Assembly: GCF_034424315.1 (NCBI RefSeq)
Contig: NZ_CP139972.1
Coordinates: 6,200,001-6,264,000 of the forward strand
DNA length: 64,000 nucleotides
Direction: 5' to 3'
Source of the DNA: Chitinophaga sancti
GTDB taxonomy: Bacteria; Bacteroidota; Bacteroidia; Chitinophagales; Chitinophagaceae
The notes under the pieces are model-generated. The model searched no databases, was not told the DNA's origin, and was given only the letters and a program-made list of their open reading frames with translations. Positions 2,444-56,616 of this stretch are shown here, in pieces (the first letter of the stretch is position 1; each line of letters begins with the position of its first letter). The position numbers and the translations under genes were made by a program.

Positions 2444-2824
2444 TTAATTGCCAATACGGTGAAACAGGTCTTTTACCTGGTAATCCCAGAGTTGGCTCTG
2501 ATCAGCTATTTCTTTTTTCTCTGCAAAATCCCTTACAACCAGGATTGTTTCGTTTGTTACTTCGGAAATGGTAATGCGAAATTCAAAGAATTCTTCTTTG
2601 GGCGCATGTTTCCAATGTAAACGGATAAATTCATCTTCTTCCTGTTCCAGCACTTCTGCTTCTTCAACAGATCCATTCCAGGAGAAGGAAAATACGTTGT
2701 CCCTGTAATCTACTTTATCCGCAAACCACTCCTGCAATCCTGCAGGTGTCGAAAGGAATTCAAATAAGATACTGGGTGAGCACCGTACGGGGTATTCCAA
2801 CTCATATTGCACTTTCTTAGACAT
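2444..2824 (-). CDS. START-like (SRPBCC superfamily) domain protein
   Basis: This 126-residue soluble protein matches the small START-like proteins common in Bacteroidota. It starts with YELEYPVRCSPSILFEFLST, followed by AGLQEWFADKV, the helix-grip opening seen in AHSA1/START folds. The fold makes a hydrophobic ligand pocket; the ligand in this subfamily is unknown. There is no signal peptide, so it is cytoplasmic. It is a single gene, convergent with the upstream hypothetical and divergent from rpoD. Confidence 0.8.
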   Translation of the reverse strand: MSKKVQYELEYPVRCSPSILFEFLSTPAGLQEWFADKVDYRDNVFSFSWNGSVEEAEVLEQEEDEFIRLHWKHAPKEEFFEFRITISEVTNETILVVRDFAEKKEIADQSQLWDYQVKDLFHRIGN

Positions 2825-2887
2825 CGCTCAAAGTAATTAGTAAATCAATATCATCTGGCTGCAATTATAGAAAAATATTTATTCTGT

Positions 2888-2895
2888 CAAAATTA
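2888..2895 (-). promoter_or_regulatory. -7 box for the START-like gene
   Basis: The minus strand reads TAATTTTG, matching TAnnTTTG. It would give a leader of about 57 nucleotides before the ATG at 2824. Confidence 0.4.
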
Positions 2896-3100
2896 TTTTG
2901 CGTTTTTTTTTAATAATTGCCCAAATCTTTTCACACTTTATAAATAACAATTCTATTATGGAAATTAACAATACATTAGCGTTTCGCAGCACTTCTTTCA
3001 CAGCAATTTACTGTCAGATGAGCATTTCAGCCCTTTGATATGTACGTTGTGAATGGTGAAACGTTTTTGCTTAAAAATGATTCAATAAGTAACAATTTAT

Positions 3101-3131
3101 TTTGGCTACTGTCTAAAAAAACTTATTTTTG
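3101..3131 (+). promoter_or_regulatory. rpoD promoter (-33 TTTG, -7 TATTTTTG)
   Basis: TTTG at 3101-3104 and TATTTTTG at 3124-3131 are separated by 19 bases, which is the canonical Bacteroidota sigma-ABfr arrangement. The ATG lies 56 bases downstream. This suggests that rpoD is read by its own holoenzyme. Confidence 0.7.
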
Positions 3132-3187
3132 TCTGGCATTCATCAAAAAGGTAACGTTTTATTCACCTGTAACTGTTCCGAGTCTTT

Positions 3188-4063
3188 ATGTCAATGCGCC
3201 AACTCAAAATCACTAAGTCGATCACTAACCGTGAGTCCCAATCACTGGAAAAATATTTGCAGGAAATTGGGAAAGTAGACTTAATCACGCCGGAGGAAGA
3301 AGTGAACCTGGCTATCCGCATTAAGCAAGGAGATCAGAGAGCACTGGAAAAGCTTACAAAAGCCAACCTGCGCTTCGTGGTATCTGTTGCGAAGCAATAT
3401 CAGAACCAGGGTTTATCCCTTAGTGATCTGATTAATGAGGGCAACCTCGGTCTTATCAAGGCAGCACAGCGTTTTGATGAAACACGTGGTTTTAAATTTA
3501 TCTCTTATGCCGTATGGTGGATTCGCCAATCTATTCTGCAGGCATTGGCAGAACAAAGCCGCATCGTTCGTCTGCCGCTGAACAAGGTAGGCCTGAGCAA
3601 TAAGATCAGCAAAGCATACTCCCAACTCGAACAGGAATTTGAAAGAGAACCATCGCCAGACGAACTGGCTACTATTCTCGAAATCAATACAGAAGAAGTA
3701 GAAGCCACTTTAGGTGTTGCCGCACGTCACGTATCTATGGATGCGCCTTTTATCGACGGAGAAGATAACTCTCTCCTGGATGTACTGGCTAATCCAAATG
3801 CAAGCAGTGCAGATGAGGAACTGGATCACCATGATTCACTGCGTCGCGAAATAGAACGTTCTTTATCTACCCTCACAGATCGTCAGAAAGATGTGATCAT
3901 GCTGTATTTCGGTATTGCAGTAGAACATCCGATGTCACTGGAAGATATAGGGGAGAAGTTCGGTCTGACCCGCGAAAGGGTTCGCCAGATCAAAGATAAG
4001 GCGATCACTAAGTTAAGAACAACCAGCCGTAGCAAATTATTGAGGAACTATCTGGGTAACTAA
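3188..4063 (+). CDS. rpoD: Primary RNA polymerase sigma factor RpoD
   Basis: This 291-residue protein is the housekeeping sigma factor (sigma-ABfr type) that directs core RNA polymerase to TAnnTTTG promoters. It lacks region 1.1 and the long non-conserved insert, as expected in Bacteroidota. Region 1.2 ([20 protein letters not shown]), region 2 with [35 protein letters not shown] and the Trp-rich 2.3/2.4 segment ([14 protein letters not shown]), region 3 and the region 4 helix-turn-helix ([16 protein letters not shown]) are all intact. Two ATGs are possible: 3188 (MSMRQ) and 3194 (MRQ). The latter matches the usual family N-terminus. A strong terminator follows directly. Confidence 0.98.
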
Positions 4064-4088
4064 GATTCGTTTCCTGAAACATATTAAA

Positions 4089-4120
4089 GGATAATACCAC
4101 ACGGTATTATCCTTTTTTTT
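4089..4120 (+). terminator. Intrinsic terminator of rpoD
   Basis: There is a perfect 10-bp stem (GGATAATACC at 4089-4098, GGTATTATCC at 4103-4112) with a 4-base loop, followed by eight T residues. Confidence 0.9.
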
Positions 4121-4178
4121 ATGCCTTTTTGGGTCGGTTTACCAACCAGGCCCCGGGAGTAACTGGTTAAAAAGGGAG

Positions 4179-4263
4179 ATATCCCGCAGATAACCCGCCA
4201 ATAACCCGCCTATAAGCCGCCTATATCCCGCCTCTTTAAAGAGGCGGGATATAGGCGGCTTAT
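4179..4263. repeat. Five 11-bp tandem repeats merging into a 52-bp perfect palindrome
   Basis: Five consecutive 11-base units close to ATAACCCGCCT run from 4179 to 4233 (ATATCCCGCAG, ATAACCCGCCA, ATAACCCGCCT, ATAAGCCGCCT, ATATCCCGCCT). The last two units plus CTTT form the left arm of a perfect palindrome, 26 bp per arm with no spacer, spanning 4212-4263 and centred between 4237 and 4238. No T-run follows and the rpoD terminator lies upstream, so it does not look like a simple terminator. Confidence 0.9.
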
Positions 4264-4362
4264 GTACTGAATATGGATGGCTTATCCCCGGGATTGATTC
4301 GGTGGCAGACTATTTTCCTCTCCCTGAGGGCGGATACCCATTTCTTTTCGCTACCTTTTTAC

Positions 4363-4370
4363 TATTTTTG
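4363..4370 (+). promoter_or_regulatory. -7 box for ffh
   Basis: TATTTTTG matches TAnnTTTG and gives a leader of roughly 40 nucleotides before the ATG at 4415. Confidence 0.5.
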
Positions 4371-4414
4371 CATCCCTTAGGCTATTTCCCGGCTTAATTA
4401 AAAACAGGTTTTTG

Positions 4415-5740
4415 ATGTTTGAATCATTATCAGAGCGGCTCGACTCCGCCTTCAAGCAGTTGAAAGGTGAGGGCCGTATCAGTGAAATAAATATTGCCAG
4501 TACTGTAAAGGAGATCCGCCGTGCACTGGTAGATGCGGACGTTAACTACAAAATCGCGAAAGACTTTACCGACAGGGTAAGGGAAAAAGCGCTGGGCGAA
4601 AAGGTGATCACTGCCATTTCTCCGGGTCAGCTCATGGTGAAGATCGTGAAGGACGAGCTGGCGGAACTGATGGGTGGTACCGAATCAGAACTGGATATCA
4701 AGGCTAACCCTTCTGTGATCCTGATAGCGGGTCTGCAGGGTTCCGGTAAAACCACTTTCTCCGGTAAACTGGCCAACTTCCTCAAAACTAAGAAGGGTAA
4801 GAAGCCCCTGCTGGTAGCTGCTGACATCTACCGTCCTGCGGCGATCGATCAGCTGAAAGTACTGGGTGAGCAGATTGGTGTGGAGGTTTATAGCGAGCCT
4901 GAAAATAAGGACGCTGTAAAAATCGCCCAGAATGCGATCGCTCACGCTAAGCAGAATGGCAATACTGTAGTGATCATCGATACCGCTGGTCGTCTGGCAG
5001 TCGATGAGGTCATGATGAAAGAGGTAGCCAATGTAAAGGCTGCTGTAAAACCAAACGAAATCCTCTTCGTCGTGGACTCCATGACAGGGCAGGATGCCGT
5101 GAATACCGCCAAAGCCTTCAACGATCGCCTGGACTTCAGTGGGGTCGTACTCACAAAGCTGGATGGTGATACCCGTGGTGGTGCTGCGTTAACTATCAAA
5201 TATACCGTTGAGAAGCCCATCAAGTTCGTGAGCATGGGTGAAAAACTGGATACCCTGGATGTGTTCTACCCTGAGCGTATGGCACAGCGTATCCTGGGGA
5301 TGGGTGATATTACCACCCTGGTAGAACGCGCGCAGGCACAGTTCAACGAAGAGCAGGCGAAAAAGCTGGAAAAGAAGATCCGTCAGAACCAGTTTGATTT
5401 TGATGACTTCCGTGAGCAGCTGAACCAGATTAAGAAAATGGGTAACCTGAAGGACCTGATGGGAATGATCCCGGGGATCGGAAAGGCTATCAAGGATATT
5501 GATATCAGCGACGATGCATTTAAGGGTATAGAAGCGATCATTGGCTCTATGACCCCTGCAGAACGTAGCAATCCAGACCTGATTGATGGCAGCCGCCGTC
5601 GCCGTATTGCGAAAGGTGCCGGCAAAGACATCCAGGATGTGAACCAGTTTATGAAACAATTTGAACAAATGCGTCAGATGATGAAACAAATGAATAAATT
5701 TGGCGCAGGGGGCAGAGGGTTGAAAGCAATGGGAAGATAG
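4415..5740 (+). CDS. ffh: Signal recognition particle GTPase Ffh (SRP54)
   Basis: Ffh binds signal sequences of nascent membrane proteins together with 4.5S RNA and docks with FtsY. The 441-residue protein has the N-domain helical bundle, the NG GTPase domain with P-loop GLQGSGKTT, DTAGRL and TKLDGD, and the M domain beginning near GMGDITTLVERAQ. It ends in a methionine-rich tail (QMRQMMKQMNKFG). The start is the ATG at 4415; an in-frame TTG three bases earlier is less likely. It lies directly upstream of rpsP-rimM-trmD-rplS, an order seen in many bacteria, but the 214-base gap and a separate rpsP promoter suggest independent transcription. Confidence 0.97.
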   Translation: MFESLSERLDSAFKQLKGEGRISEINIASTVKEIRRALVDADVNYKIAKDFTDRVREKALGEKVITAISPGQLMVKIVKDELAELMGGTESELDIKANPSVILIAGLQGSGKTTFSGKLANFLKTKKGKKPLLVAADIYRPAAIDQLKVLGEQIGVEVYSEPENKDAVKIAQNAIAHAKQNGNTVVIIDTAGRLAVDEVMMKEVANVKAAVKPNEILFVVDSMTGQDAVNTAKAFNDRLDFSGVVLTKLDGDTRGGAALTIKYTVEKPIKFVSMGEKLDTLDVFYPERMAQRILGMGDITTLVERAQAQFNEEQAKKLEKKIRQNQFDFDDFREQLNQIKKMGNLKDLMGMIPGIGKAIKDIDISDDAFKGIEAIIGSMTPAERSNPDLIDGSRRRRIAKGAGKDIQDVNQFMKQFEQMRQMMKQMNKFGAGGRGLKAMGR

Positions 5741-5866
5741 TATAAAGCGGCTTCAGTGCTGAGTTTGAGGCCAGATTTTAACTTATAAAACCAGCTTTGG
5801 ATTTGATGCCAGGTAAACTGGAAATCAAACTTTTTGCAGCAAAAGAGAATTTTTAACAGAAAATAT

Positions 5867-5897
5867 TTTGAACTAATTCTTTTTAAGATTACTTTTG
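5867..5897 (+). promoter_or_regulatory. rpsP promoter (-33 TTTG, -7 TACTTTTG)
   Basis: TTTG at 5867-5870 and TACTTTTG at 5890-5897 are separated by exactly 19 bases, the same architecture as the rpoD promoter. Confidence 0.7.
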
Positions 5898-5954
5898 CTG
5901 CCCCAATTGAATAATATTTTTTAACAACTCGCAAAAAAATAATTCGAATTATTT

Positions 5955-6401
5955 ATGCCAGTCAAGATCAGATTACAACGTCATGGCGCTAAGAAGAGAC
6001 CTTTTTATTTTATCGTAGTTGCCGATGCTCGCGCGCCAAGAGATGGTAAATTCATCCAGAAGATCGGTACTTACAATCCACTGACAGTTCCTGCTTCTAT
6101 CAACATTGATACAGAAAAGGCACTGCGTTGGTTACAGAAAGGTGCTCAGCCAACTGATACCGTTAGAAGAATCCTTTCTTTCAAAGGTGTTCTCTACCTG
6201 AAACACCTGTTAAGAGGTGTGAAGCTCGGTCTGTTTGATGAGCCTACCGCTTTCCAGAAATTCGAACAATGGCAGGCTGAACACGAGCAGAAAGTTGCTG
6301 CACGTCGCGATAGCCACAAGAAAGCTAGAATCGCTACCCCAATAGTAAGAAGAGTAGAAGATGCTTCTGCTCCTCAGGCTCAGGAAGGTGGTGAAGCTTA
6401 A
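5955..6401 (+). CDS. rpsP: 30S ribosomal protein S16
   Basis: S16 is an early-assembling 30S protein. Residues 1-80 carry the conserved core ([33 protein letters not shown]). The protein is 148 residues, against 80-90 in E. coli. The extra C-terminal part (from about residue 95) is charged, with a Lys/Arg-rich helix ([16 protein letters not shown]) and an acidic, Gln/Ala-rich end, an extension usual in Bacteroidota. It is the first gene of the rpsP-rimM-trmD group and is followed by a hairpin that may attenuate transcription into rimM. Confidence 0.97.
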
Positions 6402-6427
6402 TCCAGCTTTCAAATAACATACTGAAA

Positions 6428-6456
6428 GGGAAATACTCTAGGGTATTTCCCTTTTT
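6428..6456 (+). terminator. Terminator or attenuator between rpsP and rimM
   Basis: GGGAAATAC (6428-6436) pairs with GTATTTCCC (6443-6451), followed by five T residues. rimM begins 20 bases later and has no clear promoter of its own. Partial read-through would fit the need for far more S16 than RimM or TrmD. Confidence 0.7.
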
Positions 6457-6475
6457 ACTTATTAGTCGTCAGATA

Positions 6476-6994
6476 ATGAATAACTACTTTAGCATAGGTA
6501 AACTGGTATCTGTATTCGGATTACAGGGCGAGTTTGTTCTGAAGCACAGCCTGGGAAAAAGAGCCTCCCTGCAAGGGGTGGAAGCCATCTTCCTGGAAGA
6601 GCGTAAGAACAGCTTTATACCTTATTTTGTGCAGAAAGCCAGTGTGAAAGATCATGAGCATACCTTTGTGAAGCTGGAAGGCATTGACACCAAGGAAGCT
6701 GCCCGTAAGCTGGTGCAAACGCCTGTTTACCTGGGAGAGGCTGATTTCAAATCACAGGCAGCATCATCTGCGCCACTGGCCATGCTGGGTTTTACCGTGC
6801 ATGACAAGGAACTGGGTGAACTGGGCGTGATAGAAGAGGTGATGGAAATGCCGATGCAGGTGCTGGTGAAGATCATGTATAAGGAAACAGAAGTGCTGTT
6901 ACCTTTGAATGAGCAATCACTGGTAAAGGTGGATAAGAAAGCTCAGATCGTACATGTAGACCTGCCTGAAGGATTGATGGACATTTATCTGTAG
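6476..6994 (+). CDS. rimM: Ribosome maturation factor RimM
   Basis: RimM binds S19 and assists maturation of the 30S head. The 172-residue protein has the N-terminal RimM beta-barrel (YFSIGKLVSVFGLQGEFVLK, with the G-x-x-G region) and a C-terminal PRC-barrel domain from about residue 95 (MLGFTVHDKELGELGVIEEV to DLPEGLMDIYL). Length and ends are normal for the family. It sits in the standard order between rpsP and trmD, 94 bases before trmD. Confidence 0.95.
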   Translation: MNNYFSIGKLVSVFGLQGEFVLKHSLGKRASLQGVEAIFLEERKNSFIPYFVQKASVKDHEHTFVKLEGIDTKEAARKLVQTPVYLGEADFKSQAASSAPLAMLGFTVHDKELGELGVIEEVMEMPMQVLVKIMYKETEVLLPLNEQSLVKVDKKAQIVHVDLPEGLMDIYL

Positions 6995-7982: not shown

Positions 7983-8006
7983 CAGTCCGATAAATAAATT
8001 TGAAAG

Positions 8007-8357
8007 ATGAACGCGATTTCTTTTGTTCACGAGCAACTGACAGGTAATACAAAAAACTACCCTAAGTTTAAAGCCGGTGACAATGTCACTGTAAACTATA
8101 AAATTGTTGAAGGTAACAAGGAAAGAATCCAGTCCTTCAAAGGTGATGTAATTAAGATCCAGGGTACTGGTTTCACTGCATCATTCACAGTAAGAAAGAT
8201 CTCTGATGGAGTTGGCGTAGAGAGAGTATTCCCTCTGTTCTCACCAAACATCGATGGTATCGTACTGAACAAAGTTGGTAAAGTAAGAAGAGCAAGACTG
8301 TTCTACCTGCGTGAACGTGCTGGTAAAGCTGCTCGTATTAAAGAAAAAAGGGTTTAG
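8007..8357 (+). CDS. rplS: 50S ribosomal protein L19
   Basis: L19 lies at the 30S-50S interface near bridge B8. The 116-residue sequence has the family signature around [36 protein letters not shown] and [20 protein letters not shown]. The length is standard. It has its own promoter and is closed by a strong terminator, so it behaves as a single-gene unit despite lying in the rpsP-rimM-trmD-rplS order. Confidence 0.97.
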
Positions 8358-8381
8358 TATAAATACAGGGAAATTAGTGAT

Positions 8382-8412
8382 AACGGGGACCGTTCCGGTT
8401 CCCGTTTTTTTT
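8382..8412 (+). terminator. Intrinsic terminator of rplS
   Basis: An 11-bp stem (8382-8392 with 8396-8406, one G-T pair) with a 3-base loop is followed by a run of eight T residues at 8405-8412. Confidence 0.85.
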
Positions 8413-8540
8413 GTCGCTACCTGTAAGTACCAATCTCTACCCTATTTGATCCTACCACTGCAGGGAAAAGCCCCTTGCCGCCTCCGTTTGCCCCACTCTT
8501 AAAATAAGATTAAAGTTTCCCCTATCTTCGGACAGTACAA

Positions 8541-8570
8541 TTGAATCCCGGATTTTATTACCTATCTTTG
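8541..8570 (+). promoter_or_regulatory. tatA promoter
   Basis: TTG at 8541-8543 and TATCTTTG at 8563-8570 lie 19 bases apart. A second near-match, TATCTTCG, lies at 8523-8530. Confidence 0.6.
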
Positions 8571-8597
8571 TTAGCTTAACATTTTAAAACAGAGAAA

Positions 8598-8834
8598 ATG
8601 ACTGCCGTTATTGTGAAATCACCACTGTTATTGTTCCAGGATCTGGGTATGAGCGAATTGTTGCTGATCGCCCTGGTTGTATTACTGTTATTTGGTGGTA
8701 AAAAAATCCCTGAGCTCATGCGCGGACTGGGTAAAGGTATCCGTGAGTTCAACGATGCCAAAAACAATGTACGCAAGGAGATCGAAGATGGTATGAAAGA
8801 AACACCTTCCACCACTGATCAGAAAGGAGCTTAA
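8598..8834 (+). CDS. tatA: Twin-arginine translocase subunit TatA
   Basis: TatA oligomers form the pore for export of folded proteins. The 78-residue protein has a short N-terminal part, one membrane helix ([17 protein letters not shown]), the conserved [16 protein letters not shown] hinge and amphipathic helix, and a charged tail. A Tat substrate, the phospholipase C at 15229-17649, is present in the same window. No tatC is adjacent. TatA/TatE/TatB-like assignments can be confused, but the short length and the lack of a TatB-type extension favour TatA. Confidence 0.9.
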
Positions 8835-9021
8835 TTCCTTCCCTGTACTATTACGGACTAAAAAGATTCAAACGCAGGGGAGAAGTCGTGTGCCTATGAT
8901 AGTCATAGACTAGCATTTCACGTCATGGAACCTAAAGTATGCCACAACCTGGACGCAGCACTTTTTGTGTCCGGCTTACAAGTTTGACCTGATATTTTAT
9001 TTTTTCAAGCAATTAACTGGT

Positions 9022-10470
9022 TTGGCTTTGTCTGAATTCAGCAGTATATCGGCTTTTCATGAAGCATTATACGCCGGCAGAACAACCTGTACGGGAGTGG
9101 TGCAATATTACCTGGACCGTATAGCAAAGACAAAACATCTGAATGCATACCTGGAGGTTTGGGAAGAGGAAGCCCTTCAAAAAGCACGCGAGCTGGATAC
9201 CCGTCTACAAAATGGGGAAAAGCTGGGGTCGCTGGGGGGCGTTGTGATCGGGATCAAGGATGTGATCTGCTACAAAGGGCATAAAATAAGTGCGGCATCG
9301 AAGATGCTGGAAGGGTTTACATCTATGTATTCTGCCACCGCGGTCGAAAGATTGCTGGAGGCAGATGCCATTTTGATCGGTAACCTCAATTGTGACGAGT
9401 TCGCCATGGGGTCTACCAATGAGAATTCGGCACATGGACCCGTACTCAATGCATTGGATACTACCCGTGTACCTGGTGGATCATCAGGTGGATCGGCAGT
9501 AGCCGTGCAGGCAGATCTGTGTATGGTAAGCCTGGGTAGTGATACCGGGGGATCCGTACGTCAGCCTGCTGATTTCTGCGGAATCGTGGGTATGAAACCA
9601 ACTTATGGGCGTATTTCCCGCTACGGGCTGATCGCTTATGCTTCCTCCTTTGATCAGATTGGCATCTTTGGCAGGAATGTTGCGGATGTGGCAGGTGTAT
9701 TACAACAAATAGCAGGGCCTGATGCCTATGATAGCACAGCATCTTTAGAGGAAGTTGCTGATTATCAGACACGAGAACACAATAAATCTTTTAAAATAGC
9801 GTATTTAAAAGACGCATTGTTTCACCCGGGCCTGGACCCTGAGATGAAAGATGAGTACCAAAGCTTTTTTGAAGAACTGGAAGCCGCAGGGAATTCAGTG
9901 ACAGCGGTGGATTTCGCGTACCTTGATTATGTTGTTCCTGCTTATTACGTATTGACTACAGCAGAGGCATCTTCCAATCTTTCCCGCTATGATGGGGTAA
10001 AATATGGACATAGAACACCGCTTCAGAATTTAGATTTAACAGATTTTTATAAGAAAAGCAGATCAGAAGGTTTCGGTATAGAAGTAAAACGGCGTATCTT
10101 ACTGGGCACATTCGTGTTAAGCGCAGGATATTACGATGCTTACTTCACGAAAGCGCAGCAGGTGAGGAGATTGGTAGTGAACAAATTATCAGAAATCCTG
10201 TCAACTTACGATGCGATTTTGATGCCAACTGTGCCTTCTACTGCATTTAAAATAGGGGAAAAAACTGATGACCCCATTGCAATGTATCTTGCAGACATCT
10301 ACACGGTACTTGCAAACCTCGCCGGAGTTCCGGCTATTTCCGTACCTTTGCAACGGCATTCAAACGGGATGCCATATGGTGTACAGATCATCACAAAGCA
10401 ATTTAGCGAAGCGCGCCTGTTAGACATTGCAGAACAATTTATGCAAATGAGGCAGGACACTCCTGTTTAA
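9022..10470 (+). CDS. gatA: Asp-tRNA(Asn)/Glu-tRNA(Gln) amidotransferase subunit A
   Basis: GatA is the glutaminase subunit that supplies ammonia to GatB for converting misacylated Glu-tRNA(Gln) or Asp-tRNA(Asn). The amidase-signature triad is present. With the TTG at 9022 as start (M-A-L-S-E-F), Lys79, Ser154 and Ser178 (in GSDTGGS) fall at the same numbers as in the well-studied S. aureus enzyme, which supports that non-ATG start. No ATG lies near, and the frame extends upstream to 8965 only through unrelated sequence. The 482-residue length is normal. The transglycosylase gene follows after 7 bases. Confidence 0.93.
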   Translation: MALSEFSSISAFHEALYAGRTTCTGVVQYYLDRIAKTKHLNAYLEVWEEEALQKARELDTRLQNGEKLGSLGGVVIGIKDVICYKGHKISAASKMLEGFTSMYSATAVERLLEADAILIGNLNCDEFAMGSTNENSAHGPVLNALDTTRVPGGSSGGSAVAVQADLCMVSLGSDTGGSVRQPADFCGIVGMKPTYGRISRYGLIAYASSFDQIGIFGRNVADVAGVLQQIAGPDAYDSTASLEEVADYQTREHNKSFKIAYLKDALFHPGLDPEMKDEYQSFFEELEAAGNSVTAVDFAYLDYVVPAYYVLTTAEASSNLSRYDGVKYGHRTPLQNLDLTDFYKKSRSEGFGIEVKRRILLGTFVLSAGYYDAYFTKAQQVRRLVVNKLSEILSTYDAILMPTVPSTAFKIGEKTDDPIAMYLADIYTVLANLAGVPAISVPLQRHSNGMPYGVQIITKQFSEARLLDIAEQFMQMRQDTPV

Positions 10471-10477
10471 AACAAAT

Positions 10478-11815
10478 ATGTGTATGAGGAAAATCTTTTT
10501 ACTACTGCTGTTACCAACTTTGGGTGCATGGCATTTTGAAGCGATTGGTGGCAACAGCGTACCTAAGAAGGTGGTTACTCCCATAGGAGGCCCAGATACT
10601 ACGGTATTGAACCACAAAGTTCGGTTACCCAGGGACACATCAATTGTGCCTTCAGTAACCTCTCAGGCCGTGCGTCAAAACGCACAGAGCCTGCCGTCCA
10701 GCATCAGCAATCCGAAGGTCTATGAACAGATCAACAACAACATTGTAGCTGGATACATCAATAACTTTGCCAGCAGGTATAGTCAACATCTGCAGGTAAT
10801 GATCTCCAGAGGTCAGCCTTACTTTGTAATGGTAGAAAAGATCTTTAGAGAACATGGTATTCCTGAAGAAATGAAATACCTGGCCGTTATTGAATCTAGT
10901 TTTAACACCAACGCCCGTTCCCGCGTGGGCGCTGTAGGAGCCTGGCAGTTCATGTCCGGTACTGCACGCATCTTCGGTCTGAGCGTAGGTAAAAAAGTAG
11001 ATGAACGTAAAGACTTCTACAAATCCACTGTAGCAGCAGCTAAGTTCCTCAATGAACTGTACAACCAGTTCGGCGACTGGTTACTGGTAGTAGCAGCTTA
11101 CAACTGTGGCCCTGGTGGCGTACAACGCGCTATGGCAGCAAGTGGACGCAGCGATTTCTGGGGCATGCAATATTTTCTGCCTGCTGAATCCAGAAACCAT
11201 GTTTACAAATTCATCGCGACCGGTTACATCCTCGATAGGTTCAATACCTTCTTCGGTGTGGGGAATGATGACAACAATGACCATCCAGGCGTATCTACCA
11301 TCAATGTTCCGGCTTCTGCTGTAAATTTCGCTTCTACTGAACTGACAGAAGAAGAAATGTACAGTACTGTAGAGTTCAACATTACCGGCAAATATCGTCT
11401 CGAAGCCATTGCTAAGAAACTGAATATTGAACAGGCACAAATGGAACACCTGAATCCTGATTTCGCAAGAATGATGGCAGGCCCAGAAAATAGCTACGAC
11501 CTGCGTATTCCGAAAGATAAAATGAAGCAGTTCCAGGCAGAGAAAGAAGAGATCCTGAAAGAATCGCTGGCCCTCATACTGGATGAAAGAGCAACAGGTC
11601 TTGATAAGTCTAAGTTTCCACCGCCGGCTAAATTAACACCGACGGCAGAAGCAAAGGCAGGAAAAGCAAAAGCTACTCCTGCAGCCAAGGCAAAAGCACC
11701 GCTTGCTAAGAAGAAAGGAACAACTGCAGCAGCGAAAAAGAAAGCTACGGCAAAGAAAGCAGGCGCTGGCAAAAAGGCAGCAGCAACAAAGAAGAAAACG
11801 ACACACAAGAAATAA
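10478..11815 (+). CDS. MltD-like lytic transglycosylase with Lys/Ala-rich tail
   Basis: This enzyme likely cleaves peptidoglycan strands in the periplasm to give anhydro-MurNAc ends. A signal peptide (MCMRKIFLLLLLPTLGA) is followed by an SLT domain with catalytic Glu139 in AVIESSFN, then GAVGAWQFMSGTAR and VAAYNCGPGGV. Residues ~297-345 look like a LysM-type segment. The last ~65 residues are almost only Lys, Ala, Thr, Gly and Pro, resembling a histone H1 tail, which is unusual for an exported protein. It starts 7 bases after gatA (ATG 10478, or 10484), suggesting co-transcription. A strong terminator follows. Confidence 0.9.
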   Translation: MCMRKIFLLLLLPTLGAWHFEAIGGNSVPKKVVTPIGGPDTTVLNHKVRLPRDTSIVPSVTSQAVRQNAQSLPSSISNPKVYEQINNNIVAGYINNFASRYSQHLQVMISRGQPYFVMVEKIFREHGIPEEMKYLAVIESSFNTNARSRVGAVGAWQFMSGTARIFGLSVGKKVDERKDFYKSTVAAAKFLNELYNQFGDWLLVVAAYNCGPGGVQRAMAASGRSDFWGMQYFLPAESRNHVYKFIATGYILDRFNTFFGVGNDDNNDHPGVSTINVPASAVNFASTELTEEEMYSTVEFNITGKYRLEAIAKKLNIEQAQMEHLNPDFARMMAGPENSYDLRIPKDKMKQFQAEKEEILKESLALILDERATGLDKSKFPPPAKLTPTAEAKAGKAKATPAAKAKAPLAKKKGTTAAAKKKATAKKAGAGKKAAATKKKTTHKK

Positions 11816-11828
11816 GATATTGATTTCG

Positions 11829-11860
11829 AAAAAAGCCGCTCATACCGAGCGGCTTTTTTT
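11829..11860 (+). terminator. Terminator of the gatA-transglycosylase unit
   Basis: A 13-bp stem ending in GCCGCTC/GAGCGGC (11829-11841 with 11847-11859), a 5-base loop and a T-run are visible. The A-rich left arm makes it usable in both directions, also closing the leftward nuclease gene at 11862. Confidence 0.9.
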
Positions 11861-11861
11861 G

Positions 11862-12356
11862 TTAACAGATTTTAATATTTGCTTGTACAATTAATCTTAT
11901 TCGGTACTTACTGAAAAACTTTTGAGATAATTCCAAAGTACTTCTCTGAAATTTTGGATGAGCTCTATTCGCTGCATAAGCACGCTTGTGCTTAAACTTA
12001 TTAATATCATGATGAGCAATATAATACTGGATAGTTGTTTCTAATTGATCAACTGCATGCGAAATCCAGCGAGCCTGCTGATCTTTAAGTTCAATAAATA
12101 TTATATTGTCTGAGTATGTTAGCATACCATCACATCTATTATCCATAGATCCATCAGGACGCTTTAACTCAATGCAATAATCTATCGCAGTGAATGTCGT
12201 TTCAAGATTAGATGGGTTTTCAACTTTGGCCATCCATTTTTCAGGATAATTAACATCTGAATAAGCCTTCCGGGCATTTCCTTCATCACAAATACCAAAT
12301 TCTGAATCAGTTCTTGGTGATTCCTGACAATCTCCCCCGTGAAAATTTATACTCAT
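11862..12356 (-). CDS. Small PD-(D/E)XK-like protein, partner of the upstream ATPase
   Basis: This 164-residue soluble protein belongs to no family I can name with certainty. It shows a PD-(D/E)XK-like core: Asp76 in RCDGML, then Glu89-x-Lys91 in IIFIELKD, followed by a helix (AVDQLETTIQYY). The C-terminal KRAYAANRAHPKFQ and IRLIVQA continue the fold. The N-terminus is Cys/acidic-rich (GGDCQESP, FGICDEGN). Its ATG overlaps the last four bases of the ATPase gene, implying translational coupling. I infer a nuclease, or a nuclease-fold sensor, acting with the ATPase. The pair looks more A+T-rich than its neighbours. Catalytic activity is not shown. Confidence 0.65.
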   Translation of the reverse strand: MSINFHGGDCQESPRTDSEFGICDEGNARKAYSDVNYPEKWMAKVENPSNLETTFTAIDYCIELKRPDGSMDNRCDGMLTYSDNIIFIELKDQQARWISHAVDQLETTIQYYIAHHDINKFKHKRAYAANRAHPKFQRSTLELSQKFFSKYRIRLIVQANIKIC

Positions 12357-13600
12357 ACAATTTCCTCTTCTATTTCAAGCAACTTGTCGAATGAATCATT
12401 GATATCGGCAAGTATATGATTAAGATAATTATTATCAGAAGGTATGCCTTCAAAACTGGGGAGCTTGAAGATACTTCCATTTTCAGTTAACTGATAGATA
12501 ATCGTCTCTTCCCCATCTACACATGAGTTGAGGGGTACAATTTCGTTCAGTTTTTCCTGCAAGGATAGGTTTTGATCCCGTCCCTTCATTTTATTCCATA
12601 ATTGATATCCCTTTATGGCAATTGTCAGGTAATTAATTATATAGGGACTGTGTGTTGTAAGTATTAGTTGATTTTTTTCTAGTCGGTTGGCGTATTCAAT
12701 CAGCTTGAATAGGATGATCTTCTGAGATTGAGGAAATAGGTTTTGCTCGATTTCTTCAACAATATTGAGAAATGATTCATTTTTATATTTGGACGAAAGC
12801 AGACGCATCGCGTTTTCTTTTACTTCCTGTGAAATTGAAGTATCTAAAATGATCCTTTCAATTTCCATTTGCAGGCGTTGTTGTTGTTCGCCGCTTAACT
12901 GATTTTTAGAAGAGTTAGATTCCCTATTAATCGACATACTCAAATTCCTGGATACCAGAAACAAGGGAATAAATGATTGAAATCCACTTGATGCTTCTGA
13001 AAGTCTCAGCTTTCGACCTTCGCCAAGATCAATTTTAGGGATGCGATTAAGTTTATCATATTCAAGTTTGGCATTACCCAGTGGTAACTCAATAGAGGCT
13101 GAAAGTTCTTGTAATGAACGCTGCATCTCTTCCCAAAAAGTGGATAGGGTTTTGGGTAACCCTTTTAATTTCTCGGGATTTTCTACTGCACTTAGAAAAT
13201 TTCTTTCAGCAGGAACGTACATTATTTTGGGTGCACGATATACCTCTTCAATATTTCCCGGATTTCTATTTATCTGTAATTTCCCATCACGAAAATCGAA
13301 GTTGTAGGCTGCGCCCTCGTAGGTAATAACTGTGTTCTCCCTAAAATAATTACGGATATTCTGATAATTGACATATTCTTTTACAAATCTGTTGTATCCT
13401 GTAACATAATTTTCTTTTATTTCGCTTCTGAAAAGTGCCTTTTCCAGCCAACTTAAGGTAGAGATTAATTTTGCAACACTACTTTTCCCGGTTCCCTGGT
13501 TGCCAATAAAAACAGTGAATTTCTTAATATCCATGAACCCGTCATCATCAGAGAAACCTTCTCCAATGGGGCCAAAGTGTTGTATTTTAATCCTATTCAT
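12353..13600 (-). CDS. ABC/RecF-type AAA ATPase (AAA_15/AAA_21-like)
   Basis: This is a 415-residue ATPase of the OLD/RecF/SMC-like class. It has Walker A GNQGTGKSS at residues 33-41, an ABC-signature-like stretch (LSEASSGFQSF), Walker B near FLNIVEEIEQNLFP, and a switch motif LILTTHSPYIINYL. No TOPRIM nuclease domain is fused, unlike OLD. I start it at the ATG at 13600 (MNRIKIQHFGPIGEG), because a -7 box lies at 13643-13650 and the longer frame (from 13645) would begin upstream of the start of transcription. The downstream nuclease-like gene overlaps by 4 bases. The context suggests a phage-defence or DNA-damage module; this is inference. Confidence 0.8.
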   Translation of the reverse strand: MNRIKIQHFGPIGEGFSDDDGFMDIKKFTVFIGNQGTGKSSVAKLISTLSWLEKALFRSEIKENYVTGYNRFVKEYVNYQNIRNYFRENTVITYEGAAYNFDFRDGKLQINRNPGNIEEVYRAPKIMYVPAERNFLSAVENPEKLKGLPKTLSTFWEEMQRSLQELSASIELPLGNAKLEYDKLNRIPKIDLGEGRKLRLSEASSGFQSFIPLFLVSRNLSMSINRESNSSKNQLSGEQQQRLQMEIERIILDTSISQEVKENAMRLLSSKYKNESFLNIVEEIEQNLFPQSQKIILFKLIEYANRLEKNQLILTTHSPYIINYLTIAIKGYQLWNKMKGRDQNLSLQEKLNEIVPLNSCVDGEETIIYQLTENGSIFKLPSFEGIPSDNNYLNHILADINDSFDKLLEIEEEIV

Positions 13601-13642
13601 CTGTCTTCGGTATTTTACTCCTTGATAAAAGAGCGTTCTTAA

Positions 13643-13650
13643 CAAATTTA
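13643..13650 (-). promoter_or_regulatory. -7 box of the ATPase/nuclease operon
   Basis: The minus strand reads TAAATTTG, matching TAnnTTTG, 43 bases upstream of the ATG at 13600. Confidence 0.5.
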
Positions 13651-13779
13651 ATGTGAATTACATTAGTGTAGACCTATAATACATTTAAATATAGCCATAT
13701 TACGAATTATTGTATAACCACACGGATCATAGTGATCATAATAATCAAGTAACAAAGGCAATTTGTTTATTTCTGTAAG

Positions 13780-13801
13780 TATTTAGATTTTTGTCTAAAT
13801 A
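13780..13801 (+). promoter_or_regulatory. Operator palindrome over the sdpR-like promoter
   Basis: TATTTAGA (13780-13787) and TCTAAATA (13794-13801) form a perfect 8-bp inverted repeat around TTTTTG, which resembles the 3' part of a -7 box. It ends 8 bases before the ATG at 13810. ArsR-type repressors bind such sites, so autorepression is likely. Confidence 0.6.
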
Positions 13802-13809
13802 TGTAATCC

Positions 13810-14097
13810 ATGAACACCGTCTTCAAAGCACTCAACGACAAAACCCGTCGTGATATCCTGGAACTACTCAAAGACGGGGATAAGACCGCCGGGGACGTTG
13901 CCGATCATTTCCAGTTCTCGAAACCCACCATCTCGCATCACCTTGACCTGCTTAAACAGGCGGAGCTGCTAACCAGTGAAAAAAAGGGTCAATACATTTA
14001 TTACTCTTTAAATACCACTGTCGTAGATGAGCTCCTGAAATGGGTTTTACAATTCACACCATCAATTAATAAAATGCCCGCTTATGAAAACAAATGA
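13810..14097 (+). CDS. ArsR-family autorepressor, SdpR-like
   Basis: This 95-residue winged-helix protein (VFKALNDKTRRDILELLKDG, then DVADHFQFSKPTISHHLDLL as recognition helix region) fits the SdpR subgroup. In Bacillus, SdpR represses its own operon with the immunity and signalling protein SdpI, which sequesters the repressor at the membrane when the SdpC toxin is present. No Cys-rich metal site of the ArsR/SmtB type is seen. It overlaps the SdpI-like gene by 14 bases. An inverted repeat lies directly upstream as a probable operator. Confidence 0.85.
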   Translation: MNTVFKALNDKTRRDILELLKDGDKTAGDVADHFQFSKPTISHHLDLLKQAELLTSEKKGQYIYYSLNTTVVDELLKWVLQFTPSINKMPAYENK

Positions 14098-14920
14098 CTG
14101 GCTCAGAGAGCTGCCTTTTGTATTACTCATTGCCCTCCCATGGATGGTATTCCTATACCTGGCTGACAGCTTACCTGCCCAGGTACCATCGCATTATTCC
14201 ATTAGCAGCAATGGTTGGGTCGTAGATAGCTGGATGTCGCCTTCGGGCTTCGTTACCACCACTACACTGGTAACCTTATTTTTGTACCTGGTGATGACTG
14301 TTTCTGCTTATTTTTTCCCCGGAAAGCTGCCCTGGCTGTACTATTTTAAGTTGGCCCTCATCCTGTTTTTCGATGCCATCGCCATCTGCACCATTGCAGG
14401 TTCTAACATGGATATAACGATGTTTTCAAACCTCGTTATGCTGGGATCATGTGCAATCATCAATGGATTTGTTTTTTGGCTATTTAAATATGTGAAGAAA
14501 GTGGCGAAGGAGCCTATCTTCCCAAAGTATTATAATATCATCTGGGCCGGCACCCATTTTATCATTACCCTGCCCCTGATATTGATTATCTTCTCCCGGC
14601 AAAACTGGGTAGGGCACCGTACCATTCCGCAGGCAGTATTATTATTCTTTGCCGTATTGGCAAACCTGACTTATAATGTAAAACCAAACCGGTTTATTGG
14701 CATTCGTACGCCCTGGACCCTGGCAGATGAAGAGATATGGAGAAAAACAAACCGGGTGTGTTCCAAATGGTTTTTTATCGTCTCACTGGCGGGCTTTGTG
14801 ATCAGCGTTTTTGCGCCTGAACAATGGATCCCCCGTGTGATGATCATTGTACCACTTTTCTGTGCGGGGAGTGCGATGATCTATTCTTATTGGTTGTATA
14901 AAAAAAGAGGCAGTATGTAA
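14084..14920 (+). CDS. SdpI-family membrane protein
   Basis: This 278-residue membrane protein has about seven to eight hydrophobic segments. The N-terminal part (FVLLIALPWMVFLYLADSLP, then VPSHYSISSNGWVVDSW) resembles the DUF1648 region, and NRFIGIRTPWTLADEEIWRK is the characteristic SdpI motif. In Bacillus the family gives immunity to the SdpC cannibalism toxin and signals to SdpR. Its pairing with an SdpR-like repressor, with overlapping genes, supports the same two-part circuit, but no toxin gene (sdpC-like) is visible nearby, so the ligand here is unknown. Confidence 0.85.
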   Translation: MKTNDWLRELPFVLLIALPWMVFLYLADSLPAQVPSHYSISSNGWVVDSWMSPSGFVTTTTLVTLFLYLVMTVSAYFFPGKLPWLYYFKLALILFFDAIAICTIAGSNMDITMFSNLVMLGSCAIINGFVFWLFKYVKKVAKEPIFPKYYNIIWAGTHFIITLPLILIIFSRQNWVGHRTIPQAVLLFFAVLANLTYNVKPNRFIGIRTPWTLADEEIWRKTNRVCSKWFFIVSLAGFVISVFAPEQWIPRVMIIVPLFCAGSAMIYSYWLYKKRGSM

Positions 14921-53672: not shown

Positions 53673-53709
53673 CCATGCAGATTTAATACTTAATGTTAAA
53701 TCTGCATGG
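53673..53709. terminator. 14-bp inverted repeat after the oxygenase gene
   Basis: Arms at 53673-53686 and 53696-53709 (core CATGCAGATTTAA) pair perfectly around a 9-base loop. No long T-run follows. It may terminate the oxygenase transcript and also overlaps the first codon of the pseudogene at 53706. Confidence 0.55.
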
Positions 53710-54808
53710 GCCATTTAAAGAAGGTAGAAGTCAAAATCCCAAATGCATTAAAGCTAAGCCTCGCTGTTGTCTTAATGGAATCCACGTCAGGGAGCAAGAC
53801 AACTATTGCCCCATGTTTAAGCACTTATCTTGAAGATAAATTTATAGTTGGCGGAAATAATTATTTCTTCATAGATGAAGTACAGGAAGTGAAGGAATTT
53901 GAAAGAACCCTTCGTATTTGCTGGCGAAGGGTTCTTGTGATATTTACTGTACGGGTAGTAATGCAAATATGCTATCAGGTGAATTGGCTACATTTTTGTC
54001 TGGCAGATATTTAGTATTCAATATCCATAGTCTGAGTTATCAGGAGTTTTTGCAATTTCACCAACTTGAGAATAAATTCGAATCACTAATACTTTACCTC
54101 AGGTATGTAGGAATGCCATTTTTAAGTAATATCGGATTGCAGGAAGATCTACCTTATGAATATCTGCGAGATGTTTACTCCACTATTTTGTTAAAAGACG
54201 TTGTAGCCCGTGAGAATATCCGGAATGTTTCATTTTTAGAAAATCTGGTAACTTATCTCGCAGACAATACAGGCAGTTTTTTTTCTGCCAGCAATATCAG
54301 TAAGTATCTTAAATCCCAAAGAGTGGATATCTCTCCGTAGCTAACTATTAACTATCTGCAGGCGTTGTGCAATACCTTCTTTGTACATAAGGTGGTAAGA
54401 TCAGAAATTGGAAGACTGAAAATATTTGAAATCGGTGAGAAGTATTATTTTGAAGATCTGGGTCTGCGTAATGCAATTGTTTGTTTTAATCAAGGTGCCG
54501 ATATTCATAAACTTATGGAGAATGCTGTTTACTTATTTTTAATACAGCAAAACTATAAAGTGTTTGTAGGAACGTTAGGTGATAAAGAGATAGATTTTGT
54601 TGTAGATAAAAATGGGGCTAAAATTTATTTTCAGGTTTGTCTTACTATTATGGATGAAAGTACTGCCAACAGGGAATTTGGGAATCTGTTAAAAATAGAA
54701 GACAATTATCCTAAGTATGTGATTACGTTGAATGATTTGTTAATTGGTCAGGATAATAATGGAATAATTCAAAAAAACCTGATGGATTTCTTAACAAGTG
54801 AGCTATAA
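53706..54808 (+). pseudogene. AAA_14/DUF4143 ATPase, broken
   Basis: The pieces match the family of AAA ATPases with a C-terminal DUF4143 nuclease-like domain: Walker B (NNYFFIDEVQEVKEFERTLR), a sensor segment (CDIYCTGSNANMLSGELATF, then SLSYQEFLQFH) and the DUF4143 part (LKIFEIGEKYYFEDLGLRNA, then GDKEIDFVVDKNG). Three lesions show decay. The P-loop at the start is not recognisable, a frameshift lies near 53918-53950, and an in-frame TAG at 54338-54340 splits the downstream frame. It is therefore not functional as one protein. Confidence 0.8.
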
Positions 54809-55370: not shown

Positions 55371-56306
55371 TTAGACAGCAATAGGTGAATTATTAATTAA
55401 AGAATCAAATCTATTACTACTATTATAAACTTTCTCTTTTTTTGGTTCTTTTTTTCTCTTTGTTGATATCTGTGGATATGTGGATAACTTATCAGCTGCT
55501 CCATAAATCTCAGCAGGAGTCTTATATTCCAGGCCTTGATGTTTTCGTTCCCAGTTGTAGAATTCCACATACCTGTGAATTCCCTTGTATAAATCCAATG
55601 TACTATCATAAGCATTGAGATAGATATTCTCATACTTGATGCTACGCCAAAATCTTTCGATTGCGATATTGTCAGTGGCTCGTCCTACTCCATCCATGCT
55701 TAGGCGAATTTCAGCACCTAATACAGCTGTTGTAAAGTCTTCACTGGTAAACTGGCTGCCCTGATCCGTATTTAAGATCTCTGGTGCTCCATAAATAGAA
55801 ATGGCCTTTTCAAGCGCTTCCAGACAAAATTCCACTGTCATGGTATTGCTGAGTGTCCAGGATAACAGATAGCGGCTATTCCAGTCTATAATCGCACACA
55901 GGTACATAAAACCCTTCGGCATTGGAATATAAGTTATATCCATACTCCAAACCATATTATTCCGGTCTATTTTCAGGTTCCGAAGCAGGTATGGATATGT
56001 TTTGTGCCACTTACATGCCTCACTTGTATTAGGGGCGGGATATATGGCCGAAATATCCATTTTCCGCATCAATCGCCTTATCCGCTTCACATTAACATGT
56101 AGCTCTGGTGTACTCAGATGTTTTGCCATGCGCTCTGCCCCAAAATAGGGATGTTCCAAATGCATACGGTCTATCTGCTCCATCAGCTCCAGGTTTAATT
56201 TGCTTTCTCCTTTGGGCTCATGGTAATGGCTGCTACGAGATACTTCCAGCAATTGACACTGACGTACAATACTGAGCTCATTGTCCTCCTTATTTACTAA
56301 AGCCAT
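55371..56306 (-). CDS. IS3-family transposase OrfB (DDE integrase)
   Basis: This is the catalytic transposase subunit of the rve integrase fold. It has an N-terminal HTH_21-type region (MEQIDRMHLEHPYFGAERMA) and the DDE residues: Asp in WSMDITYIPM, Asp in LNTDQGSQFTS and Glu in NIAIERFWRSIKYE, with the usual 35-residue spacing before the Glu. The ATG at 56306 (MALVNKED) is the likely start; the frame is open to a TTG at 56324. It overlaps orfA but lies in the +1, not the -1, frame relative to it, so separate coupled translation is possible. Confidence 0.92.
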   Translation of the reverse strand: MALVNKEDNELSIVRQCQLLEVSRSSHYHEPKGESKLNLELMEQIDRMHLEHPYFGAERMAKHLSTPELHVNVKRIRRLMRKMDISAIYPAPNTSEACKWHKTYPYLLRNLKIDRNNMVWSMDITYIPMPKGFMYLCAIIDWNSRYLLSWTLSNTMTVEFCLEALEKAISIYGAPEILNTDQGSQFTSEDFTTAVLGAEIRLSMDGVGRATDNIAIERFWRSIKYENIYLNAYDSTLDLYKGIHRYVEFYNWERKHQGLEYKTPAEIYGAADKLSTYPQISTKRKKEPKKEKVYNSSNRFDSLINNSPIAV

Positions 56307-56616
56307 CTTTCCAGTTCTTCCCAAATGCCTGCTCAGATTTTTTTTTCAACCAGTCGACCTCTACCTTGAGTTGACCGATTTGCTTATATAGTTCGTCTTT
56401 TTCTTCCTGATGATCTGAGGCATCGCTACCTGCCTTCTTTCCCTGGTCAAACACATCCTCTGACCCTGATAGCAGTTGCTTCTTCCACTCTGTTATCTGA
56501 GTAGGATGTATATCATACTTCTCGGCCAGCTCTGCTAAGGTCAGCTGTTCCTTTAAGGCCTCGATAGCTACTTTCGCTTTAAACGCTGCATTGAACTTTC
56601 TTCTTCCCTTGTTCAT
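56290..56616 (-). CDS. IS3-family OrfA (transposase helix-turn-helix subunit)
   Basis: This 108-residue protein has an HTH_Tnp_1 domain (RRKFNAAFKAKVAIEALKEQ, LAELAEKYDIHPTQITEWKK) and a C-terminal leucine-zipper-like coiled coil (LYKQIGQLKVEVDWLKKKSE) used for dimer formation. It binds the IS ends. A run of nine A residues on its coding strand (56346-56338) lies near the end. Confidence 0.92.
   Translation of the reverse strand: MNKGRRKFNAAFKAKVAIEALKEQLTLAELAEKYDIHPTQITEWKKQLLSGSEDVFDQGKKAGSDASDHQEEKDELYKQIGQLKVEVDWLKKKSEQAFGKNWKDGFSK

Follow-up and report, generated by a model that had tools for sequence, protein, structure and literature searches.

The PDC-M29 pair

A stretch of 64,000 nucleotides from Chitinophaga sancti (contig NZ_CP139972.1, positions 6,200,001 to 6,264,000; hereafter the window) carries two overlapping genes, A and B, which an initial annotation made from the sequence had put forward as an unnamed candidate defence system, composed of an ATP-binding cassette (ABC)-type ATPase and a PD-(D/E)XK-like partner. 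The coordinates, the strand and the 4-base overlap given there were right, and the pair is probably a defence module as proposed; its standing as an unnamed system was not borne out, since PADLOC-DB holds both proteins as PDC-M29. The cassette comprises:

12353..13600, minus strand: gene A, 415-amino-acid ABC-type (AAA_15/AAA_21) ATPase, PDC-M29A
11862..12356, minus strand: gene B, 164-amino-acid probable PD-(D/E)XK nuclease, PDC-M29B
12353..12356, minus strand: stop/start overlap of A and B (ATGA, 4 bp)

Protein A matched the PADLOC model PDC-M29A (E 4.9e-175) over residues 1-413, corresponding to profile positions 1-409 of 410, and B matched PDC-M29B (E 2.4e-65) over residues 1-162, profile positions 2-163 of 164. 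Because both proteins match the two component models end to end, with no difference found, the pair is by sequence a member of this candidate system of PADLOC-DB 2.0.0 and not a new system. A full-text literature search found no paper naming 'PDC-M29'. In the passages of PMC12988326 that deal with them, PDCs are described as candidates derived from 'guilt by embedding', most of them without experimental validation, and embedding among restriction genes may well be the origin of the PDC-M29 label. The name is a candidate label and the defence function putative. To it we can add a likely fold for B with three putative catalytic residues, a strict pairing, a clean insert and a recurrent hsdS-hsdR address suggesting a possible trigger, which would turn a bare catalogue entry into a testable machine.

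The ATG at 13600 fits the start of A in the family, and the TTG at 13645 in the list of open reading frames (ORFs) lies upstream of it. The ATGA overlap is also present in 55 of 78 relatives. A promoter scan of positions 11500-14000 returned 9 promoter-like sites versus 8.0 ± 3.0 in shuffled sequences, so that a promoter shared by A and B, as initially proposed, gained nothing from the scan and is plausible from the overlap only.

An ABC ATPase and a predicted nuclease

Protein A displays the P-loop GNQGTGKSS, an SEASSG signature, EE at the Walker B position and a THSPYI switch, in agreement with the motifs first read from the sequence. Residues G33, G38, K39, S40, S205, G206, E282, E283 and H317 were identical in all 87 aligned rows (window included), and G36 was kept in 83 of them. 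The Pfam matches of A include AAA_15 (3.6e-13) and AAA_21 (2.1e-10); no nuclease domain occurs among its 8 Pfam matches, as expected for an ATPase without a fused nuclease, and no NCBIfam model reached the cut-off for the cassette proteins. Its fold matched those of PtuA, Rad50 and AriA, the best being PtuA, tied with Rad50, and in structural terms A is a PtuA/Rad50/AriA-type ABC ATPase. The homologue count for A (5354 of 7999 scored) tells little about pairing because the wide AAA_15 family was swept in.

For B, the homologue search gave 67 of 75 candidates, and the alignment (88 rows, window included) bears out the early assignment of D76 and E89-x-K91 to a PD-(D/E)XK motif. At position 76, 83 rows have D and 5 have E; E89 is found in 87 rows, K91 in all 88 and Q104 in 87, so the motif is conserved as a catalytic site would be. 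The predicted model (predicted local distance difference test, pLDDT, 90.5) has its strands ordered as in a PD-(D/E)XK core, with strands at residues 77-81, 84-91, 123-130 and 154-157 and helices at 98-115 and 141-151; the strand-strand-helix-strand core bearing D/E76, E89 and K91 is thus present in the prediction, and the fold fits what the initial annotation had anticipated. Profile and structure searches with B gave no clear match: Pfam gave nothing at E up to 1, Foldseek with the predicted model nothing below E 1e-3, and a search of PDB sequences with the B profile only three chance-level matches (best E 0.12, ribosomal eL13). Considering the conserved residues and the predicted core, we regard B as a probable PD-(D/E)XK nuclease. 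The single departure at position 89 is a Q in L029 (9908-10399), a B from a locus embedded in a restriction operon, and this copy is possibly inactive.

The initial annotation had set the pair apart from Septu, Gabija and PARIS by its partner gene, and this was upheld, there being no PtuB/HNH, AriB/DUF4435 or helicase match to B. Septu (PtuA plus PtuB) and the retron PtuAB effectors are likewise two-gene combinations of an ATPase and a nuclease, but the matches of A to PtuA models were no stronger than 5.2e-9, and membership was rejected because B matched neither PtuB nor HNH profiles up to E 1. In one Septu system, mutating either the ATPase or the nuclease abolishes defence and a tRNA is cut (PMC13096335). 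PARIS (AriA plus AriB) also joins an ABC ATPase sensor to a small nuclease, and A matched the AriA model at 9.4e-16; however, AriB is described as a Toprim tRNase, kept sequestered by an AriA hexamer up to the detection of a phage protein (PMC12409363), whereas B is predicted to have a PD-(D/E)XK-like core, and PARIS was rejected since neither AriB nor DUF4435 matched B up to E 1. PDC-S01 and PDC-S27 combine an ATPase with a PD-(D/E)XK-superfamily domain too, but fused in one gene, as far as PMC12988326 describes them. PrrC resembles the embedded pairs in carrying ABC ATPase motifs and a nuclease within a type I locus, that of type IC EcoprrI (PMC2610378, PMC12707154, in their passages on PrrC). 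It differs in being one protein with an anticodon-nuclease triad, while PDC-M29 consists of two proteins with another, predicted type of nuclease and is usually not embedded; PrrC was rejected on the two separate ORFs and the lack of a nuclease domain among A's Pfam matches. Gabija, in which the ATPase is fused to Toprim and accompanied by the UvrD-like GajB, was rejected because GajA matched only at 7.1e-10 over A residues 144-322 and the 164-residue partner lacked a helicase match. DarTG2 is a toxin-antitoxin pair, its proteins not known to be related to A and B. It has been reported, in the part of PMC12255303 on the RptR island, from the same operon slot as the embedded pairs, between hsdS and hsdR.

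Pairing, distribution and insertion

Two peptide patterns derived from the alignment of B were used to scan 84,980 species genomes; 102 loci were confirmed, of which 80 were kept. In all 80 an A match lay just upstream of B, near full length in 78, which answers the question of co-occurrence raised with the first description of the pair. Conversely, B stood beside A in 20 of the 21 A loci of a phylum sample (window's own included) and in 6 of 6 further loci of relatives. The pair thus travels jointly, and the distances of A and B correlate (Mantel r 0.55 over 76 loci, a value reached in 0 of 999 permutations), a correlation that is also expected from joint inheritance. The sole unpaired A locus is L022 (1483-4177), a PDC-M29A-like ATPase without B that is preceded by a methyltransferase gene, truncated where the locus ends, and by a restriction-enzyme-like gene. 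In L049 (10838-11851), from Sphingobacterium siyangense, a second and distant ATPase relative (25% identity) follows closely after the A-B pair.

The distribution is patchy: of 36 genomes from the genus 6 carry the family, and of 395 in the phylum sample 19 do, both counts including the window's own. The closest neighbours of the window copy in the A tree are two copies from Sphingobacteriales, followed by Thioploca and cyanobacterial ones (97-98% support in the Shimodaira-Hasegawa-like approximate likelihood ratio test, SH-aLRT, quick method); it does not group with the other copies of its genus. L050, from Chitinophaga eiseniae, and L151, from the window's genus, encode identical A proteins. 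B was not found in IMG/VR with close-relative patterns, nor in phage records.

The surroundings of the cassette can be summarized as follows:

11861..13761: insert of 1901 bp, the segment missing at the matching site of a sister genome
10478..11815, plus strand: left flank, SLT-domain transglycosylase gene (Pfam SLT 2.2e-26)
13810..14097, plus strand: right flank, gene for a small, putatively ArsR-like regulator (judged by eye)
14084-14920: SdpI-like gene, next after the regulator (Pfam SdpI 2.8e-17)

Window positions 8000-11860 align at 92.7% to positions 2781-6638 of locus L142, from the sister genome G425, and positions 13762-14907 align at 71.9% to L142 6637-7781, the 1901 bp between the aligned flanks being missing there. 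In two further genomes (G420 and G404) the transglycosylase adjoins the regulator without the pair between them; altogether, flank synteny was kept in 3 of the 8 regions fetched, the pair was missing in all 3, and in the other 5 the regulator was elsewhere. The G+C content of the insert is 35.1% versus 44.7% and 44.9% in the flanks, and only 7 of 621 overlapping windows of insert length, its own included, were as low. Repeats of at least 9 bp shared by the insert ends were not found, and there was one inverted 8-mer. The higher A+T content had been noted at annotation as fitting acquisition, which is probably correct: the simplest reading of the alignments is that the pair was gained as a unit in the window's lineage, loss in the relatives being a less simple though admissible alternative. 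Since the insert is clean and sister genomes retain its flanks, strains with and without the pair can be compared naturally.

Restriction operons and possible function

The proximity of defence genes, suggested as a check at annotation, was assessed by direct mapping for the genes of restriction systems. The seeds were HsdR, HsdM and HsdS proteins matching PADLOC type I models plus one type IIG enzyme, a set that a distant HsdR would escape. An hsdR gene was located downstream and on the same strand in 14 of the 80 loci, versus none of 20 control regions of 12 kb, and hsdS lay upstream in 9 and hsdM in 8 of the 14. A minority of copies is thus found in type I operons; no hsdR was seen in the other 66 loci, at least 3.5 kb of downstream sequence being available in 57 of the 80 (13 of them with hsdR) and under 3.5 kb in 23. 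HsdR was the next ORF in 10 of 13 drawn layouts (three ORFs intervene in L043; L069 was undrawn), and in L029, L060, L064, L090 and L102 its ORF starts 6-10 bp after the B match ends. Between hsdS and A there is one ORF in L029, L041 and L064, and more in L054. The best models for the HsdR proteins scanned were PDLC03040, PDLC03041 and PDLC03049. Type I restriction genes were also prominent when nearest-neighbour ORFs were compared with PADLOC at 1e-15: 127 ORFs (from 144, loci L023 to L093, ORFs longer than 1500 residues dropped) matched 227 models, with REase_I reaching up to 6 members and Specificity_I 5 among the families listed, versus 13 models of one ORF each for 117 control ORFs (from 145 chosen of 187), a coarse control because all came from four genomes. 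In L046 (2871-6116), from Rufibacter hautae, the gene after the pair encodes a restriction-methylation enzyme of type IIG, and the restriction link may therefore extend beyond type I.

On the A tree (55 rows, 13 embedded, quick method; L069 was left out as its genes were missed by ORF calling) there are 7 changes of the embedded state, of which well supported branches force at least 5, versus 11.9 in shuffles; over all rows with 13 labels there were 8 changes. Such counts cannot separate gain from loss. The embedded state is therefore clustered and part of the 14 cases reflects shared descent, and as judged from the tree the pair has moved into or out of the hsdS-hsdR slot repeatedly, with partial inheritance of the state. 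The link in cis with type I restriction seen in 14 of 80 relatives does not extend to the window copy: the 45 window ORFs compared with PADLOC matched no restriction model, and two profiles detected no HsdR in the genome, where HsdS and HsdM genes are present. Another ATPase-nuclease pair is embedded in type I modification genes of that genome: ptuA and ptuB, a Septu pair, lie between hsdS and hsdM on one strand (L160 4879-10559; G000:C1:7605001-7624000).

By analogy with PARIS and Septu, the strict pairing and the conserved active sites on both proteins fit a licensing of B by A, and we believe it probable that the pair, as a PDC-M29 member, acts in phage defence through control of the PD-(D/E)XK nuclease B by the ATPase A. 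B would be a metal-dependent nuclease, harmless while bound or controlled by A; A would sense an infection cue and release or activate B; and active B would cut nucleic acid, with phage growth being stopped, probably at the cell's expense. DNA is a more likely substrate than tRNA because PD-(D/E)XK enzymes mostly cut DNA. We infer the gating of B, its DNA target, the outcome in phage defence and, for embedded copies, a trigger tied to restriction.

Two accounts of the embedded copies have to be weighed. The first, to which we give somewhat less than an even chance, is that PDC-M29 is ordinary defence cargo, an autonomous ATPase-nuclease module of Septu-like logic that shares a hot spot and a promoter with restriction genes while being uncoupled from them. 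It is favoured by the 66 loci without hsdR seen, by the clean solitary insert in the window, by the Septu pair of the same genome and, in the relevant part of PMC12255303, by other occupants of the hsdS-hsdR slot, namely DarTG2 and, in four genomes, a pair formed by an RNA-binding protein and an AAA-like ATPase. However, the repeated moves into or out of one slot with unchanged gene order hint at a benefit of co-expression. The second account is that the pair perhaps guards restriction systems in some hosts. The type I complex would silence the pair, as with PrrC, and inhibition of the complex by a phage would unleash it, while solitary copies would act in trans or would directly sense anti-restriction proteins made by phages, as PARIS does. 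This is a possibility that we hold tentatively, as the less likely of the two. PrrC offers a precedent, sitting in a type IC locus (PMC12707154) and being silenced by the type IC restriction complex until freed by the phage T4 protein Stp (PMC2610378), as stated in the portions of these papers that concern it. The downstream hsdR that every one of the 14 embedded loci has on the same strand, the upstream hsdS in 9 of them, an arrangement reported for DarTG2 (PMC12255303, in its RptR island part), the 6-10 bp spacing in five loci, the three different best HsdR models and the 7 changes of state, at least 5 forced, all agree with it. Against it, the hsdS-hsdR gap holds other cargo as well, so that position alone is no proof of coupling; most copies, the window's included, were not seen embedded, and two profiles detected no HsdR in the window genome; and the clustering on the tree points partly to shared descent. 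A wider proposal would make PDC-M29 a restriction guard built from two proteins, in which the ATPase restrains the PD-(D/E)XK nuclease until a phage disables restriction. Such a 'plan B', resembling those of PrrC and PARIS but with a new fold of the effector, would have entered or left the hsdS-hsdR slot of various type I systems on several occasions and would also act on its own; we regard it as more doubtful still. If true, the guard strategy of PrrC and PARIS would exist with yet another kind of nuclease.

An addiction or plasmid-exclusion module of toxin-antitoxin type, in which B would be the toxin and A its antidote, would account for the two-gene overlap and the conserved order; it is improbable given that A is a complete ATPase whose catalytic residues are intact and that 72,556 plasmid records held only one copy of B, a distant one (34.8%) from Persicobacter. 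A housekeeping or repair pair for DNA processing, similar to Rad50-Mre11, is in our view very improbable, the family being patchy even within the genus, missing as a unit from relatives, scattered across phyla in its nearest relatives and accompanied by restriction genes.

Elsewhere in the window, positions 53706-54808 hold a gene matching PDC-S01 and AAA_14 that is split over different ORFs, apparently a decayed candidate defence gene; it lies near an rve-type transposase (55371-56324), in the area where the window has its most A+T-rich kilobase. Among the 45 window ORFs there was also one match to DpdF (1.4e-123) and one to MzaA (4.2e-45), possibly ordinary helicase or repair genes.
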